64,000 nucleotides of DNA from Asterias amurensis (taxonomy: Eukaryota; Echinodermata; Asteroidea; Forcipulatida; Asteriidae). Each line of letters starts with the position of its first letter. Within the stretch, counting starts at the first letter, position 1. A program made the position numbers and the translations under genes. The stretch spans positions 1,550,001-1,614,000 of the forward strand of contig NC_092654.1 of NCBI RefSeq assembly GCF_032118995.1, in the 5' to 3' direction. This document shows positions 11,299 through 39,600 of this stretch, piece by piece. The notes under the pieces were generated by a model that saw only the letters and a program-made list of their open reading frames with translations, was not told the DNA's origin and did not search any database.

Positions 11299-11460
11299 TT
11301 AGAGTTCTGAATGTCTGTAAGCATATTGTGGATATTCATGTTTTGCAAGAATGTTATCCATGTTTTTGTCATGGTCTTGCAAGATGTCTTGGACCACTTT
11401 TTCAATTTCAACTGCATCTGCCATTTTACCAACTGCAGTCTTAGAGAGGAATGACCTGAT
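11299..11460 (-). CDS. Alternative last exon 4B of the FKBP gene: EF-hand 2 plus HSEL end
   Basis: The acceptor after ctgggttcag follows a pyrimidine-rich tract and joins exon 3 in phase 0. It encodes IRSFLSKTAVGKMADAVEIE, then KVVQDILQDH and an EF loop DKNMDNILAKHE (Asp 1, Asn 3, Asp 5, Glu 12), ending YRHSEL and stop. The layout matches exon 4A helix by helix but the sequence is far diverged, so this looks like an old exon duplication used as an alternative last exon. It has its own ATTAAA signal 56 bp downstream of the stop. Confidence 0.82.
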   Translation of the reverse strand: MRSFLSKTAVGKMADAVEIEKVVQDILQDHDKNMDNILAKHEYPQYAYRHSEL

Positions 11461-14400
11461 CTGAACCCAGGACCCGCAGATAAATGAAAAGATGAATTTC
11501 AACGATGCCGAAAAGCGATTTGCAGAGAAAGTGAGAGAAGTTCATGTTTAGCCCAGATTGATAATGTGCAGGGATGATTAAAGACCAGGAAACACCAAGA
11601 TTTGGGTTTAACGGGAAAAAGGGTAAGGAAAGGAGTCAAGAGAGACAAAGACAGATTTTACTAAAAGAAGATATTATTAGAACTCATCGTGGAAATGTTT
11701 TGGCCCTCTAAATTCGTCAAAAGTTATCACATCATCCGTATCCATATCTTGGGCCTCAAACATCTTATCAAGCATGTCGTCAGCTTTATCCTCTTCAGCA
11801 TAGCCTTGGTTTATGAAGAAACCCCTAACCTACTCGATCAAGGAAGATGGCGTTGGGAATTGAGTGAACCGCATTAGGATAAGCAGAGAGAGTTTGTGAG
11901 TTGGAAATGCAGGGATTAATCAAAGTTGATTTACGTTTACAAAGAAGCCAATGTTATTCCAGAGGTTAAGAGTAGTGCAAATGGTATTGTTAAAGGTTTA
12001 AAAAGCAGTTGAATATTAATAATTAAAACAGAATAAGCATCAACAAAAGAGAAAATGTCACATTAAGAAAGTAAAAAGGGTTCAACACAGACAGTAAAAG
12101 TAAAGTGGGAGAATGGGGGGAAAACGGGAAAACAAAGTTATTGATTAAAAACTGTTGTTCCTTGGGGTTAGTTTTGGTTACAAATACACATGCATGGTAC
12201 TTTGTTTTACATTTGACACACAAAAAACATTCATAATTTCCTGTTTTCACCTCTTGGTCTCTTAATTTGGAACCTTTATGGACTGATATTCTTGCAGCAA
12301 GAAGAAGACTCAAGTCAGGATAAAACTCTTCCACACATTGGGATAATTTTGATTAAACCAATCCTTGTGTATCCGCACAAATAAAACTGGCCTGATGTTG
12401 TGAGGGTTTTCAAAAAGGCTCTGCTACGGCTTAAATGTCAGGCCATTAAATATATTTTGCATTTATTTATTTATTGTTAACCCTGGGCAAACCTTTCAGT
12501 AAGAACACTGATTTTCAAAGGTTCCCAGCCTCAAAACATCCATTATAGCTTGTTTGATACCATATAGGTTCTTTTGGTCGATAAGCAGTTTGCATAAGCT
12601 AGTTCCATTTTCTCAGAATACTAATAAATAAATCAGGGTAAATAACATATATACATATCCCAAATAGGGTAGTTTTTGTGGCAAGGACATTGTGAGAGCA
12701 TTTTTGTTAGCCGCTTTACAACATAAAAGGTTAAGACTCATGCAAGGTGACTCTTATAGGAAGGTCATTTTAACAGGTGACTGAACATAGTCGATTGCAG
12801 CAGGGAAAATGAAAAGCACAATAGAAATTTAACAGGTCATGGCATTATTGTGGTTTTGCACAACAATGGGAGAATTCCGCAGTTTTAGAAAACTGGCATA
12901 GACCTGACTAGAGAGTTTTTACATAGATATGTACACGTGTATCTGTTTTGTACACGTGTACTAACTGATGAACTGTGACACACAAAGTTAGCCCTCTTAT
13001 TTCACTGATGAAGCTTGCTCTATCACTAATGGGAGGGTGGGATGAGAGAACTTGCTTGATTTCTTCATTGTCTCCTCTCTTCTCGTTTGGCTCTAATAAT
13101 AACAATAAATTTAGAGATAATTGACCTCAAAATTTGGTAATTACTACCTAATTTTAATATGCAAATTAGGTCACTTCTGGGCTGAAGCTCTTGTCCCATT
13201 TTGGATATGCCACCAATAACCATCCAACAAACAAAAATCAACAGTAAAACAAACTTTTGCAATTTGTTTGAGAATATAATACCCAAATCCAAAACTGGGG
13301 CGGGGGGGGGGGGGGGGGTGCAGAGTTAGCTACTTTACCTCATCTTTTGTCAGCTGATCATCTTTATCAGCGTCCATCATGTTAAAGATATTTGTTGGTT
13401 CCATATCTTGAATAGATCGGATTGTTATGGTGTACACAGCTTCCCTGTCAGTTTTGGGCTGTTTAAGACCTTTGGGAGTCAAGAAGATAACAATAAGAAA
13501 CTGAATTCTGTTACTAGGTTTAGAATGGTTTGAATGTCGACTGTTATTCAGAATCAGGGCAGTGGCGTTCTGAAAGCCTTTATTATCTTATTAATGTATT
13601 CAACATCTGTATACAGTGGGCCATCTTTGATTTCAAGTTTTGACTTGCATTGGACCACACCTCTGGTTGCTTCTAGTTCGATTGTGTCAATTAAAATAAA
13701 ACAAAATTGTGTCAAAGTGCACTGAGTTCATTACACAACAATAGCTTGAAGTTCTGTACCATATTTAGTATCTACTTCCAACATTGGTCCAGGCTGTATG
13801 GTAATCTCTCGCTGTTCACCGACACAAACGTCTTTCAGGCCCTCGTACAATCCTGGTAGTTTATGATCCCCACCAACTTCGATCATCAAAGATCTTTTTC
13901 TTGATTTACTTGGGGGATAAAAATGAAACAAGTTTGGTTAAGAAACTAATTTTAACAATCATGATAAATAAGTGTGATCTTGTTCAAGGTGATTGTTTAT
14001 TTGTGAACACTTGTTGCCACTTGCAACATGCTTGCAACGACCCAGCACTTTAAACTTTCATCTTTCAAGTGTTGCTTGTCAACAAATCTGCCCCTTTAAC
14101 ATTATGGTGCGTGATCATACAGTAGAAAAGAAAGTATATGATGTATTTTAAGTTAACCATTGCACTAAAAAATGGAGGTAATTATAAAATTCAAAGTTTC
14201 AAACTTTGTGTTCAAAAGAAAACAACTATATATGACAGTCAGATCACAGAAATAATAGCCCGAACAATTAAATACTTACGTGGAATCAAATCTTTCAAGA
14301 ATAGTTCCGTCATCTTTCATTTGTTGTGCGAAGAATTCAACTTCCAACCAGTTTCCTTTTACTGCAATTCTTTTACATTCACCGAGTGTGGCCAATCTTT

Positions 14401-14566
14401 TGACGGTAACACCCTCCGCGAATTCTGGCATGTTCACTTCGAATGGCAGCGCCGTCTCCTCGCTCTGGACCACGGCATCGTCAGACTCCTCCGCTGATGA
14501 TACCGAAGCAATAAACAGACACAAGAGCACCGCACAATTAACAACGAAAATACACCGTCCCTTCAT
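11299..14566 (-). CDS. ER-resident FKBP-fold/EF-hand protein, FKBP7/14-like, two alternative last exons
   Basis: Exons (minus): 14280-14566, 13737-13908, 13339-13458, then either 4A 11677-11829 or 4B 11299-11460. Both last exons join exon 3 in phase 0, giving 243 or 246 aa. A signal peptide (MKGRCIFVVNCAVLLCLFIA) is followed by one FKBP-like domain (about 45-168): ERFDST, then GLYEGLKDVCVGEQREI. EF-hand 1 has loop DADKDDQLTKDE in exon 3, and EF-hand 2 lies in the alternative exon. The protein ends in HDEF (4A) or HSEL (4B), both KDEL-like, so it should be retained in the ER lumen. FKBP7/14 relatives are ER prolyl isomerases acting on secreted proteins such as collagen. Here the FKBP pocket looks degenerate: Leu replaces the pocket Trp and the YG of the 80s loop is missing. 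Catalysis is therefore doubtful and a calcium-binding chaperone role is inferred. The exon 2 donor (GTGTAA) is weak and could shift by one codon. Confidence 0.88.
11677..11829 (-). CDS. Alternative last exon 4A of the FKBP gene: EF-hand 2 plus HDEF end
   Basis: The acceptor after gatcgagtag joins exon 3 in phase 0. It encodes VRGFFINQGYAEEDKADDML, then an EF loop DMDTDDVITFDE with Asp at 1, 3 and 5 and Glu at 12, then RGPKHFHDEF and stop. Calcium ligands are intact. HDEF is an acceptable variant of the KDEL/HDEL retrieval signal. No canonical AATAAA lies between this stop and exon 4B; only a weak AGTAAA follows closely. Confidence 0.85.
   Translation of the reverse strand, partial: VRGFFINQGYAEEDKADDMLDKMFEAQDMDTDDVITFDEFRGPKHFHDEF
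12023..12334 (-). other. Unassigned open frame in FKBP intron 3
   Basis: 103 codons including CFLCVKCKTKYHACVF, a cysteine-rich stretch. I recognise no family. It may be a transposon fragment or chance. It sits between FKBP exon 3 and exon 4A on the sense strand and has no clear splice borders. Confidence 0.2.
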
Positions 14567-15417
14567 TTTGAGTTTGGATTCAGTGCAATTTAATATTTGT
14601 CAGAAATGTAGACGAAGGGAAAATAATTACAAGAGTTGTTCAATTCTTACAACGGCGACCAAAAAGCTAGGACAACCTTTATGAGCACACCTACTACTTC
14701 TAGCTAGTCTAGTCAGCAACGTGTCACTATGTTATTATAAACAACAATACTATTTTTTATTTAATCTAACGGATAGTTCGTGATTTTAACAATTTGAGTT
14801 AAATGTGTAGTTTTTCAGCAAATAAAAGATTGACTTGACGTTATTTAACTGTTATAACTAAATCTGTGTCTTTTCGAGTCGCTTTTAATTGTGTCTAATT
14901 AAATTAATTTATTGCACCAAGTACACCAAATTAATTAAAAACTTTACACAAAATGCATAGTCTGGTGTAAAATGTAACTGTGAATATAGTATTCAACAGT
15001 ACAGAGATAAAAAGGGTTGAAGAGTAGCCACTGTTGATTATTAAAGGAGGGTGAACTTTAATTGTAATGATTCCAAAGTAGATCCCTAGAAAATATTGAA
15101 TATACAAAATTATTTAAACGAAACATTTAAAAAGTAATAAGTAAAATGTTAATTTTCAAAATTGTACAAAACAAGAGTAGAATGACAAATTATAATTTAC
15201 ATTGAAAAAGTGGTTAGAAAAATACCCCTCAAAATTAAATGGAATGAATCAAATACACCAACTACAGGTTAAAATGGGGTTTCGATTTAGCGCTAAGTGC
15301 ACGTTGTAAATAACTACGTTGCTGACTTGGCCGATTGCGGATGTAAAAAGTGCCCGATTTTGGGACTAAATGTTTGCTGTTTATGGTTAAAAGCTACGAG
15401 GGAAAATAATGCCTGAA
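14567..15417. promoter_or_regulatory. Shared 5' region between divergent FKBP and PLEKHA8 genes
   Basis: The two start codons lie 851 bp apart in head-to-head orientation. The stretch is AT-rich and unique, with no recognised repeat copy and no obvious TATA box beside either start. It must hold both 5' UTRs and both promoters, so a bidirectional promoter is likely but not shown. Confidence 0.45.
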
Positions 15418-18400
15418 ATGGAAGGAGTGCTGTTCAAGTGGACAAATTATTTGGCTGGTTAGTATTATGGTGTTATGTATCAAAAACGGCTTCAAAATGG
15501 AATCAATAACGGGAATGTAATGTTGATTGAATGAACGAATCATCGAATGACATTGACTGACGGACTGACTGACACTCGACCTCCTCAACTCACGTCGTCA
15601 ACCCCCCCCCCCCGGCCATCCCCGCTCAACTAAAATTGTAACTCATTGTCAAACACGCCACCACGTGGTCCAGTGGGTTACTTAAATCATAGTGCAGGAC
15701 TTGAATCACAAGGTTGTGGGTTTTGAATCTAACTGCTGATTTCACACTACAAAAATTGACATCTCCTTTTGTCTGAATCATGGACATGGTCCTTATGTAT
15801 GGAGGTAAACATGGTAAAGAACACATGTTCAACCTATGTTTGCATGAGAGAGTTTGGGAGAGGGCTGGCTGGCAAACTTGGTGTTTTCCCCTTGTGTGGG
15901 AGGTTGCCGAGTTCCTTTTTGGATTTTTGGAGGGGAAAGTCATGACTGTTGTTTATAAACTGATTTACTTAAGTGCATTCTGAAAGCTTCTTCCATCCTA
16001 AAATGCGCAGTTCCTATTATAAATAAGGAATTATTATTATTGTTTACAAACAAACTAACAAACAAATGTCAAAAGGTAGACCCAGCAGTAACTGCAGCGC
16101 CTTATAACTCCCCCTTTTCAATAGTTGAACGTCTCTGAAATTTAACTTGTTATTGAATGTTTTCTTTTTGTGCGTGCCTCAAAGAGGGTGTTGTACAATT
16201 TGCCAGCTTAATTAGTAAAAATTAACCCATATATAGGCAATATATCCGCTATCTGCATTTTATAGTCAATTTTTTTGTCTTGCAGGCTGGCAGCTAAGAT
16301 GGTTTGTTCTCGATAAAGGCATCCTGGCATACTACAAATCCCAAGACGAAGTTCATCTCGGAAGTAAAGGATCAGTCAAAATAGCATGCTGTGAAATAAT
16401 CGGTAAATCTATTACGTCTCTGTGTATCTTTCTCCATAGGCCCTCGTGTGTTAAACTTTGACCCAAGGAGTAAAGCCCTGTTCATACTTCCTGCGATACA
16501 AACTTTGACGTCACAAATTTGCAACAAATTATTCGCGTCAGTTAACTTGTGCTCAATTCCTGCGAAAGTATCGCTGTGAAAACAGTCCTGTAACAGCAAA
16601 ATTTGTTTCGCATTCGCATTTGCAGAAAGTAACGTGTGAGAAGTTGAAGACTCTAGCCATGTTCGAAATGGCGGCTATGACTTTGTCCGGATTCCGGCAT
16701 CATCATGTGTTTAAGTATAGGATGTCCTTGGCAAGACACTTGGCAACCATCATAGCTGATCTGTAGCCTCCATTTCAGATACAGCCTCAGTCTTTGCTGA
16801 GTTAAATGGCTTGGTTGGGGGCTGGGGGCTGTCAGTCTACCTCTTTCAATGTTGTTTTTACGTTCGTTTAACCTTTACTCTCTTGTTCTTTTGCAAGAAA
16901 CCCTTAAAATTCTGGCTGGTCTGTTTCATTCATGAGCAATTTTTATTTAGATCTGGGCCCAATCTCATAGCACTGCTTTTGAGCAGATAATGTTTATTAA
17001 GAAGTTTGCTTTTAAAGAAGTCATTCCTTAAACCATCTAAGCTCCCAGGGGAGTATACAGCCTGTGCAACAAATGTGCTACTAAGCTAACTCAATCACAA
17101 AATTCATCTCTCTCTTCACAGGTACCCATTTACCCCTGGGTGGAGAGAAGCAATTATAGTTGAGTGTGTTGCTCAGGGACACTAAAGTCACGACCGGGAC
17201 TCTAACCCACACTCTGCTGGACAGAAACTCCAGAGCTTGAGTTTGATGTTCTTACGCTTCGGTGTGACACACCTATGCCTTCTCCTTTAAGTAGAGTTTT
17301 CTTTTATTGTTTCCTCAGTTCATCCGTCCGACATGTGTCGTCTTGATCTAATCATTCCTAATGAGCAGCATTTCTACGTCCGAGGAACGTCTCCCGCAGA
17401 GAGGCAGCAGTGGTTGGTTGCGTTAGGCTCGGCTAAGGCCTGCCTCACCGATGCCAAGCAGCAACTGAAAGGTAGTTTGAACTGCACTTCTTGTAAAGGT
17501 CAGGGGAAACAAAGATACCAGGGCTCAGAATACTTCTACTTCTTGTTTGGTAGAATCCATAAGACTGGATGTAATGCCAAGAACTTCTTGTCCATGAGCG
17601 GTGCAGTAGTGCGTACGTAAACTGGACCACAGGCTCAACGCCTGTGATTTTAGTGTTAGGCCAGTTAACTTACAAGACCTGGCTCACAAATGTCAAGCAG
17701 CAACCGAAAGGTACTTTGCACAACACTTCTCGAAAAGTTTGCCAGTGGTCAAAATTAACACTGGACCTCATGCCTGGGGCCTGTGATTTTAAGTTCGGGT
17801 CTGTCAATGTATACGTATAACGCACAAGTTTTTAACTTCTGCAGGCAACTTTTAGTTCTACTTGTAATTCGGGAAAACGAACCTTTCCTTGGGCACACGC
17901 CTGCAATCCGTTGGACCTCCAGAATGTTTCGTTGAACCACATTCTGGTGAAGTAGGGGAGCAAGCCTGCATTCAAGTCAAGATGTTTGTCATAAAAACAA
18001 CCCACAAATGAACTTAACAATATGTTTTTTTTACAGATAAGACAGAAGAGACATTGAAAGCCAAGATGTCTGAACTGCGCCTGTACTGTGATACGTTGAT
18101 GCAGAGTGTCGCTGCAGTCAAGTTGTCTGCCAAGGCAGATGATACTCCAGATATTGAGGTACGGAAGGTTAGGGAGAGACAAAAATATACAGGCCTAAAA
18201 ATCACCCACGCCACCCACAGCAATAGTAATATCCAGTAGGCTCCGCCCACGACGCACGTGTCAGCAAGAACACATGGGGCTCTCCAATGCCTTTCTGCAC
18301 AACTCTGCCGCGTGCGCCAAGATACGCGCACTGATGACGGACCTTATTTGTCGGACCTTCATTGCGCTGTGATTGGTCAATACGCAATGGGGCGGAGCTT

Positions 18401-36345: not shown

Positions 36346-36642
36346 ATAGGGAAATCTTCCCGCCGTAGATTCTGGCCCCTAATGGGAAATTAACATGGGC
36401 TGGAGGAGATTTCAAAAGAGGGCGCTATCAGAAGAAGTTTGTACACAGTTCGCCATGCTTTATGATATCATGCTTTATGATATCATGATTGTGCGCTTTG
36501 CCCCGAATGCAGTACATTGACAGCCGTTTCCATCATGCATCACTACATTCTGAACAAGAATTTCTACCATTATCAATTTTTTCCTTTTTTTTTTAGTCCA
36601 AATATTATTTCAACTTCATCCTGGACATCACTATAAATTTCT

Positions 36643-39600
36643 TCATCGAGGAACAGCACAAATTTTGAATTCGTGCGGAGCATGGTTTATCCCCGGGTGA
36701 CCGTCCAGGTCTGGGAGTGGCGTGCCATTGGGAAACTTCAACGTGAAGTGCTTCAAGACGTTGGTGATGTAGAGATAAATTAAAGAACGGGTCCACTTCT
36801 CTCCTGGGCATGCCCTTTGACCTTTTGAATAAATAATGGCATAAGCATTGTCAATAATTGTACCATCAACAAACAAACAAACACCTCAACAAACAACCTA
36901 ACAGATGCTACAAAAAAACAGTAACAAAAATAAACACTCTAACAAATAAACAAATAGAATAGACAATTAATATTTACCAGTTGAGAATGTCATGATTTTA
37001 TTCGGCACTGTGAACTTCCCCTCCGGGTTCAGGAACCGTTTCGGGTTAAAACGGTCCGGTTCCTCCCACAAAGCGCCATCAGTATTTGCTGCGTAAATGT
37101 TGGTAATGAGCGTAGTGCCTCCGGGTATGAAGTACCCACCAAGAGTAGTGTCTTCCGTCACTCGGTGAGGGGCTCCGAGAGAAGTCACCGGACGGAATCG
37201 TAAAACTTCGGTAATTGTCGCCATTGTGACGTGCATTTTGCTCTTGTGCGTAAGAGATGGTGCATCGCTACCTGTGGAAAAATTTGCAAGACGATACTTC
37301 AGGTCATAGAAGAAGAAGACAAAATCACTATGAATTTATAAAGTATTTATAAAAACGCTCAGGCCTCTGTGTGCTTCGTTTTTGAAAGGGCAAGGGCACC
37401 AAGGCATTTTCTCCTTGGTAAAGGGCACAATATATGAGGAAATAAAACTAAAACTTCCTTCTGTGTCTTCTCTCCATGGGGTTCTTGGCTTATAGTAAAG
37501 TAATTAAGATCGTATAATTCCGAGAACCCTTGGCTTCACGACCAGAATTATAAGTAAAGGATAGCGTGTCGTGGCCGAGTGGGTCAGAGCACCAAACTCA
37601 AATTCTGGTGCTTCTGTTCAGCAGAGTGTGGGTTCGAATCCTGTCGTGACACTTGTGTCCCTGACCAAGACACTTATTTACAATTGCTTCTCTCCAACTC
37701 AGGGTAAATGGGTACCTGTGAGGACAGAGATGGTTATTGTGATTGGTTTAGTTTAGTAGCGCTTTTATTGTTGCAAAGGCTGTATACTGTCCAGGGAGCT
37801 GAGATGGTTTAAGGAATGACTTAAGGCCCAGTGACTGGGGGTAATAATGTTGGAAGCGCTTTGAGCTGCCTTCGTATGTGAAAAGCGCTTACTGTTATAA
37901 GTAAACAAATGAATAAATAAGTAAATCACCAACTCCAACCACGTGATCAATCTCTTCCTGGATTCTCCTCTGCCATTCTGGATAAACCATCAGAATCTGA
38001 AGAACCCACTTCAGTCCAATTAAAGACGTCTCAGTCCCTATCACGAAGAAATCGAACAAGACGAGGGTGTAATGTTCGTCCGGTGCTAAGAAGGCCTGTG
38101 CTCTCTCCCTCAATGCAGCATCATTGCTCTTAGCAAGCTGCCTCTTGGCTTGTTCTTGAATCTTTATAATGCCATCTACGTAAGAATCAAACTCATCTTC
38201 CACTGTGTCCGGGTTTTCCTCGGCCCGGCGCCGGGTGTTCTGAAGCAAAGATCGCAACGCCTTCTCCAGTTTGTATTTTCGCGGCATGATGTTTCTAACT
38301 ATGAAATTGGGGAAGAACTGCGAGGCCAGGATCATTGCTGGGTTCATTTTCAATATTTCAGAGGGGGATTCTCGGAGATCTGTAAGTGACTTGTTCACCT
38401 CCCAGTCCGGTCCAAACGTAAATCTGAATTTCATTTTGTCAAAAGAAAAAGGGGGAAAAAACATCATAAAACTAAAACAACAACATTAAAAGCACTGGAA
38501 ACCTTTGGTAATTGTCAAAGACCTTTTTCACTAGTTTTATCCCAATATAATGCTTAAAATAACAAATCTGAAATTTTGACTCAATTGGTCGTCGAAGTTG
38601 AAAGAGAATTATGAAAGAAAACACACCTGTTGCACAAAACTGTGTGTGCTTTCAGATGCATAATAACAAGCTTTAGGCCTGAAGTCTTTGATTATGAAGT
38701 TCTGAAAGGAACTGGCTTCTCTGCTGAAGACCCCTAGAACGAAACGTCAAAGTATTATTGATTTTAGTTTCCAAGATTGAACTGTTTTATTTGTTTTCAC
38801 AGAGCTCGGGAAAGTACTGAGTATACATTGCTAACACACATTGGTGTGTATGGGTAAAACAAAAATGATTATTCTTTATTCCTGATGCAAATTTCCATCT
38901 ATTAAAGGCACTGGACATCTTTGGTAATTGACAAAGACCAGTCTTCTCACTTGGTGTTCTCAAAATGCATAAAATAATAAACCTGTAAAAATTTGAGCTC
39001 ATTTGGTCGTCTAAAATTGCAAAAGAATAATGAAATCGCACAAGTTGTGTGCTTTCAGATGCCTTGAATACAAGACCTCAGTTGAGGTTTTTGTTAAAGT
39101 CACCTGGAAGTGGTATTTTTTCAAAATAAAGCTTTTGTCACTAATATATGTGTTTTGATGAGTGGAATGTGAATAAACAGTTAACTAAGGTTTTAAAAAA
39201 TCAGTTCTTATGTTATTAACAAATTTAAGAGTAGACCCCGACCCGAGAGGGGGCGCTGTTCGTAACGTCAATCGAGGCAGACTTTGCCTGTAATGCGTAG
39301 AGTAAACACAATTGCAAAGTACATGTACGGACCAAGTCGTGAGTTTGTACATTTCAATTTTTTTTTTTTTTTTTTTCCCCGGCAATGCCGACCAGGTGTA
39401 TTGCTGCTGAATGCAGAAAAACACTTTTTGAAATGTACCAACTCACGACTTGGACATACATGTACTTTGCACGTGTGTTTGCTATACGCATTGCAGGCAA
39501 AGTCTCGATTGACGTCACAAAAGGGGTAGGCGGAGTCAGCCCCCCAAACGACTTTATGTATTTTTTAAACATATAAATCGTGACAAACAAATACTAAAAA

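Follow-up and report, generated by a model that had tools for sequence, protein, structure and literature searches.

The genes closest to the one described here are vertebrate FKBP7 and FKBP14 (FKBP23 and FKBP22). Their products have a signal-peptide-like start, one FKBP domain with two cysteines in FKBP14, two EF-hands and a C-terminal retrieval-like tail, and the genes have PLEKHA3/8 neighbours. The human FKBP7 and FKBP14 proteins end in HDEL. Human FKBPs are described as carrying HDEL or HEEL (PMC8248988), and vertebrate FKBP14 is reported to bind collagens (PMC10607241). A synteny study describes Plekha3-Plekha8 as paired with Fkbp7-Fkbp14, and a single Plekha3/8 gene in invertebrates (PMC8983885).

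Alternative C-termini from homologous tandem 3' exons are known as tandem duplicated exon substitutions, for example in tropomyosin. Such events are C-terminal in 77 of 236 cases annotated in human, in a paper whose main text does not mention FKBP (PMC9741552). Splicing near the 3' end can also set an ER retrieval tail. The collagen-modifying ER protein P3H1 is described with alternative isoforms that lose KDEL by frameshift or intron retention (PMC9956579). In a published table Drosophila FKBP14 has two transcripts with a single CDS length, and an arrangement with two last exons is not seen there (PMC5870485). Among the matches listed from open-licence PMC, screened by their titles and the opening of their abstracts, we found no report of an FKBP7/14 gene with two last exons.

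Here we describe a gene of the sea star Asterias amurensis that shares the signal-peptide-like start, the FKBP domain, the retrieval-like tail and the PLEKHA3/8 neighbour of vertebrate FKBP7 and FKBP14, with a putative pair of EF-hands, but has two last exons and the tails HDEF and HSEL in place of HDEL. In its homologous tandem 3' exons, which would give alternative C-termini, it resembles the tropomyosin type of exon substitution. It also resembles the P3H1 isoforms with and without KDEL, except that here another tail would come from a homologous second exon. The two-exon feature is real, and it is of a kind already known, the C-terminal exon swap.

Structure and identity of the gene

The window, the whole 64,000-nucleotide stretch of DNA that was analysed (C7:1550001-1614000, from a genome with 23 contigs), contains on its minus strand a four-exon FKBP7/14 gene in which every exon junction keeps the frame (Table 1). 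The hydrophobic N-terminus encoded by exon 1 looks like a signal peptide. The phases of exon 2, read by eye, are those of an FKBP14-like paralogue on contig C11. Ends of exon 2 at 13740, 13737 or 13735 were dropped in favour of 13760, which is consistent with the phases and with the FKBP14 alignment. Exon 3 ends immediately 3' of position 12 of EF loop 1, and the exon 3/4 junction falls directly past this loop. The earlier note had placed two last exons, 4A and 4B, in this gene, each in phase 0 with exon 3, and we find both at those places. These homologous, phase-compatible coding exons would exchange the C-terminal 50-53 residues, giving an isoform A of 239 residues (4A) or an isoform B of 242 residues (4B). 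A run of 17 C residues lies on the gene strand at window 13302-13318, about 20 bases past the exon 3 donor, and is a possible splicing element or unstable homopolymer.

Table 1. Features of the FKBP7/14 locus in window coordinates; a slash marks the exon/intron boundary.
Feature	Position	Strand	Description
Exon 1	14566-14280	-	start codon, hydrophobic N-terminus, FKBP domain start; phase 2 end; donor CAC/GTAAGT
Exon 2	13908-13760	-	FKBP domain core (GLKDVCVGEQRE); phase 1 end at TATG/gtacag, donor weak
Exon 3	13469-13339	-	FKBP domain end and EF-hand 1 loop DADKDDQLTKDE; phase 0 end; donor GAG/GTAAAG
Exon 4A	11829-11677, including stop	-	VRGFF...DMDTDDVITFDEFRGPKHFHDEF; tail HDEF; acceptor after ...GAGTAG
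Exon 4B	11460-11299, including stop	-	IRSFL...DKNMDNILAKHEYPQYAYRHSEL; tail HSEL; acceptor after ...GGTTCAG
AGTAAA, candidate variant poly(A) hexamer	11662-11657	-	just 3' of 4A stop; overlaps weak candidate donor GT 11661
ATTAAA, candidate poly(A) hexamer	11243-11238	-	3' of 4B stop
PLEKHA3/8 first coding exon	15409..15457 (end approximate)	+	head-to-head with FKBP7/14 gene

The FKBP domain of the gene product is recognised by FKBP_C with 30.8 bits (cut-off 21.1), and the best PDB match is FKBP14 (4msp, E 8.7e-9), with the two FKBP14 cysteines kept in the alignment. The EF-hand_7 model, whose cut-off is 30, matches residues 173-230 of isoform A with 27.4 bits, slightly below that cut-off, and residues 173-222 of isoform B with 21.9 bits. 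EF-hand_1 finds two stretches in isoform A and one in isoform B. Compared with FKBP12, the pocket is altered at several sites (Y26 to F; W59 to L, as in FKBP7; Y82 to L; and F99 to Y, the alignment in the Y82 region being uncertain), which makes isomerase activity uncertain.

The neighbouring PLEKHA3/8 gene can be recognised from its PH domain, which was assembled from later exons and matches PLEKHA3 2mdx with an E-value of 3.2e-37; the GLTP part that marks PLEKHA8 was not confirmed in this gene (5kdi match, E 0.012). Because its head-to-head position agrees with the published synteny, we consider the sea star gene a likely orthologue of both vertebrate genes, FKBP7 and FKBP14. The start codons of the two neighbours are 843 bases apart, or 852 with a second ATG at 15418. 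This gap of about 850 bases between starts on opposite strands (window 14566 to 15409) suggests that the genes share a promoter region and have long been paired. Elsewhere in the window, at 36605-38485 on the minus strand, open frames look like those of a candidate cytochrome P450.

Homology and age of the two last exons

Each last exon opens at the residue homologous to VKAYL of human FKBP14 (VRGFF in 4A; IRSFL in 4B, when read from 11460). Against the human FKBP14 exon-4 residues, which agree with the PDB alignment in all except the last six, 4B reaches a z-score of 6.7 and 4A of 5.3, with neither score attained in 1000 shuffles. Compared with each other they give a z-score of 4.4, a value reached by none of 1000 shuffles and none of 2000 codon shuffles, and the neighbouring exons encode homologous residues, as in tandem duplicated exon substitution. 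4B resembles the last exon of the C11 paralogue less closely, with a z-score of 2.7 that 10 of 1000 shuffles attain. A profile from which 4B was left out gives it 10.0 bits (E 0.13) and places it fourth of 2898 frames, below two members of the training set and one frame from an EF-hand protein at locus L027, where EF-hand_7 gives 44.2 bits. A PDB search with exon 3 plus 4B, a query that includes exon 3, puts five EF-hand proteins ahead of FKBP14 4msp, which comes sixth with E 0.0013, and its alignment covers residues 116-200 of this 200-residue chain, reaching the end of both sequences.

The duplication looks old, since third codon positions of 4A and 4B match at chance (0.28, against a codon shuffle mean of 0.31) and the longest DNA word common to their surroundings has only 9 bases. 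The exons may have parted long ago, or evolved fast. Despite this, both frames are open and a retrieval-like tail is kept in each. Second codon positions match more often (0.62) than third positions do (0.28), but this difference is largely reproduced by codon shuffles, whose means are 0.56 and 0.31, and we therefore dropped the pattern as evidence; in neither direction do codon positions point to selection on 4B.

How rare such an exon is can be gauged with a pattern of AG, open frame, EF-like loop, KDEL-like tail and stop. On the minus strand of the window it finds only the 4A and 4B stops and on the plus strand nothing; it is likewise absent from 257,606 strand-bases taken from 13 further loci in the genome, as well as from 9.0 Mb of first-order Markov sequence, counts that measure rarity and are no blind test, as the pattern was drawn up with both exons already known. 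An open frame of 53 codons by itself follows 3.4% of AG sites in simulated sequence.

Splice sites, EF-hands and tails

We ranked the 141 AGs between 13300 and 10500 with an approximate acceptor matrix, in which the 4A acceptor takes rank 2 and the 4B acceptor at 11460 rank 30, with a score of -0.97. An alternative phase-0 acceptor of 4B at 11439 scores better than 11460 (0.44, rank 17). A start there would remove the first seven residues of 4B, IRSFLSK, which align with VKAYLKK of human FKBP14. Homology hence favours 11460 whereas the splice score favours 11439, and the 4B boundary is less certain.

The earlier note had read a canonical EF loop in each exon, and the 4B half of this claim is not supported. 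On its own 4A gives a weak EF-hand_1 match of 17.7 bits, below the cut-off of 25.4, and 4B alone matches none of the EF-hand Pfam models. In the 4B loop, DKNMDNILAKHE, positions 1, 3, 5 and 12 carry residues of ligand type, but position 6 is not a glycine. The predicted structure of 4B (pLDDT 70.1) has one helix at 15-40 running through the loop, which is mild evidence as it comes from a single sequence; the prediction for 4A is poor (pLDDT 59.5, helices 13-25 and 37-40). A second EF-hand therefore seems plausible in 4A and degenerate in 4B.

KDEL-like tails are present in both exons as had been proposed, but neither is a standard K/HDEL. This weakens the description as a standard ER resident and leaves the orthology claim intact. 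In one study HDEF is retained less well than HDEL and better than HDEA in a cell assay, and binds the KDEL receptor at 23 uM compared with 18 uM for HDEL (PMC7617889). HSEL ends Drosophila CG2918 (PMC1462989) and is required for the activity of a fungal lectin, for which the authors infer use of the KDEL receptor (PMC13324453). No affinity for HSEL was found in the literature searched.

Other copies in the genome

Beyond the exons of the gene itself, no third copy of exon 4 and no remnant of exon 2 or 3 was found in the window at E < 0.2, in a search for exons 2, 3 and 4 over 2472 frames of at least 18 codons. Three queries were run against the genome, namely isoform A, the C11 protein and exon 3 plus 4B. 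Each found itself, and in all there were three further weak matches, with E-values from 2.6 to 5.5, two of them (E 2.6 and 4.2) for exon 3 plus 4B; these searches are insensitive, as the window gene and the C11 gene each missed the other. We also scanned for EF loops in 12 stretches of 9.9 kb that cover the 16 FKBP_C matches in the genome, among which the window gene does not appear; EF exons outside these stretches would escape the scan. It found the C11 gene, in two exons, and single frames at L016, L017, L021 and L029, which we judged to be noise. Prokaryote genomes yielded 20 pattern matches, none of them a relative.

The C11 paralogue (L024, G000:C11:1777000-1786900, minus strand) has four coding exons with the same phases, as far as can be read by eye, an FKBP domain of 60.7 bits and two EF loops, like the window gene. 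Unlike the window gene it has a single last exon as found, which ends in WDDM without a KDEL-like tail, and downstream of it neither an EF loop nor a tail pattern that could belong to another last exon was found.

Discussion

On balance we lean towards the explanation that this gene is an FKBP7/FKBP14 orthologue with an old tandem duplication of its last coding exon, making two C-terminal forms by splicing with 4A as the default. The protein would be an FKBP of the ER lumen with two C-terminal EF-hands, and its last coding exon would have been duplicated in tandem, probably long ago. Each last exon would act as a cassette comprising the exit helix of EF-hand 1, the whole of EF-hand 2 and the retrieval tail. 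Splicing of exon 3 to 4A would add a plausible second EF-hand and HDEF, and skipping of 4A, with exon 3 joined to 4B, would add a degenerate second EF-hand and HSEL. The two exons could not be translated from one message because 4A has its own stop. Since the 4A acceptor is much stronger, 4A is probably the default, and use of 4B would require 4A to be skipped. What the sequence establishes is the gene structure with its phases, the homology and the synteny. 4A and 4B are probably alternatively spliced; that both transcripts exist, that the proteins are retrieved to the ER and that they differ at all in calcium binding is what we infer from the locus.

Several observations speak against this two-form reading, namely the weak 4B acceptors, the lack of an EF-hand Pfam match in 4B, the 10.0 bits of the leave-one-out profile, the lower similarity of 4B to the C11 last exon, the five EF-hand proteins that outscore FKBP14 in the PDB search, the single last exon in C11 and the one CDS length listed for Drosophila FKBP14. 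The weak acceptors, the degenerate EF loop that lacks a Pfam match and the single C11 exon also favour the view that 4B is a relic, a duplicated last exon formerly used and now rarely or never spliced, so that only the HDEF protein is made. We consider this unlikely, but a possibility to be reckoned with. 4B keeps 53 open codons although its DNA similarity to 4A is gone. It still begins in phase 0 at the homologous residue, its loop retains residues of ligand type, and its end remains retrieval-like. The modest profile score would rather suit a 4B that is foreign to this gene, either an open frame that arose by chance or what is left of another gene nearby. This is very improbable, given that the search of the window found no more copies of FKBP exons 2, 3 or 4, that exon 3 plus 4B retrieves only itself and two weak matches from the genome, that it aligns right through to the end of FKBP14, and that the exon pattern has no chance occurrence in 9.0 Mb.

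How the two forms would be produced is a further question. The earlier note had proposed a choice between two 3' ends, which is not supported as written; no AATAAA or ATTAAA was found between 4A and 4B, where the one candidate signal is the variant AGTAAA. Both exons might instead be used with one shared poly(A) site beyond 4B, such that 4A is either included, with 4B in the 3' UTR or spliced as part of it, or skipped. This is a tentative possibility that alters only the mechanism and predicts the same two proteins, and its probability overlaps that of the preferred explanation. The ATTAAA past 4B and the weak candidate donors at 11661 and 11595, past the 4A stop, are in its favour. However, both donors score below zero (-2.85 and -2.05), and the AGTAAA variant would be a plausible signal for a 4A end. 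The candidate poly(A) signals are compatible with either a 3'-end choice or a shared end.

We regard as rather improbable the stronger claim of a regulated pair, in which 4A/HDEF would be calcium-responsive and weakly retained, and 4B/HSEL calcium-insensitive with another retrieval strength. If true, a single splicing choice would set the calcium coupling of this collagen-related chaperone as well as its residence, and would do so in an animal with connective tissue of variable stiffness. With 4A alone in use, the locus would show a duplicate exon that is dying out. With both exons in use, the calcium module and the retrieval tail of an ER chaperone would change together through one splicing choice, and the gene would offer a natural test of non-canonical tails as retrieval signals.
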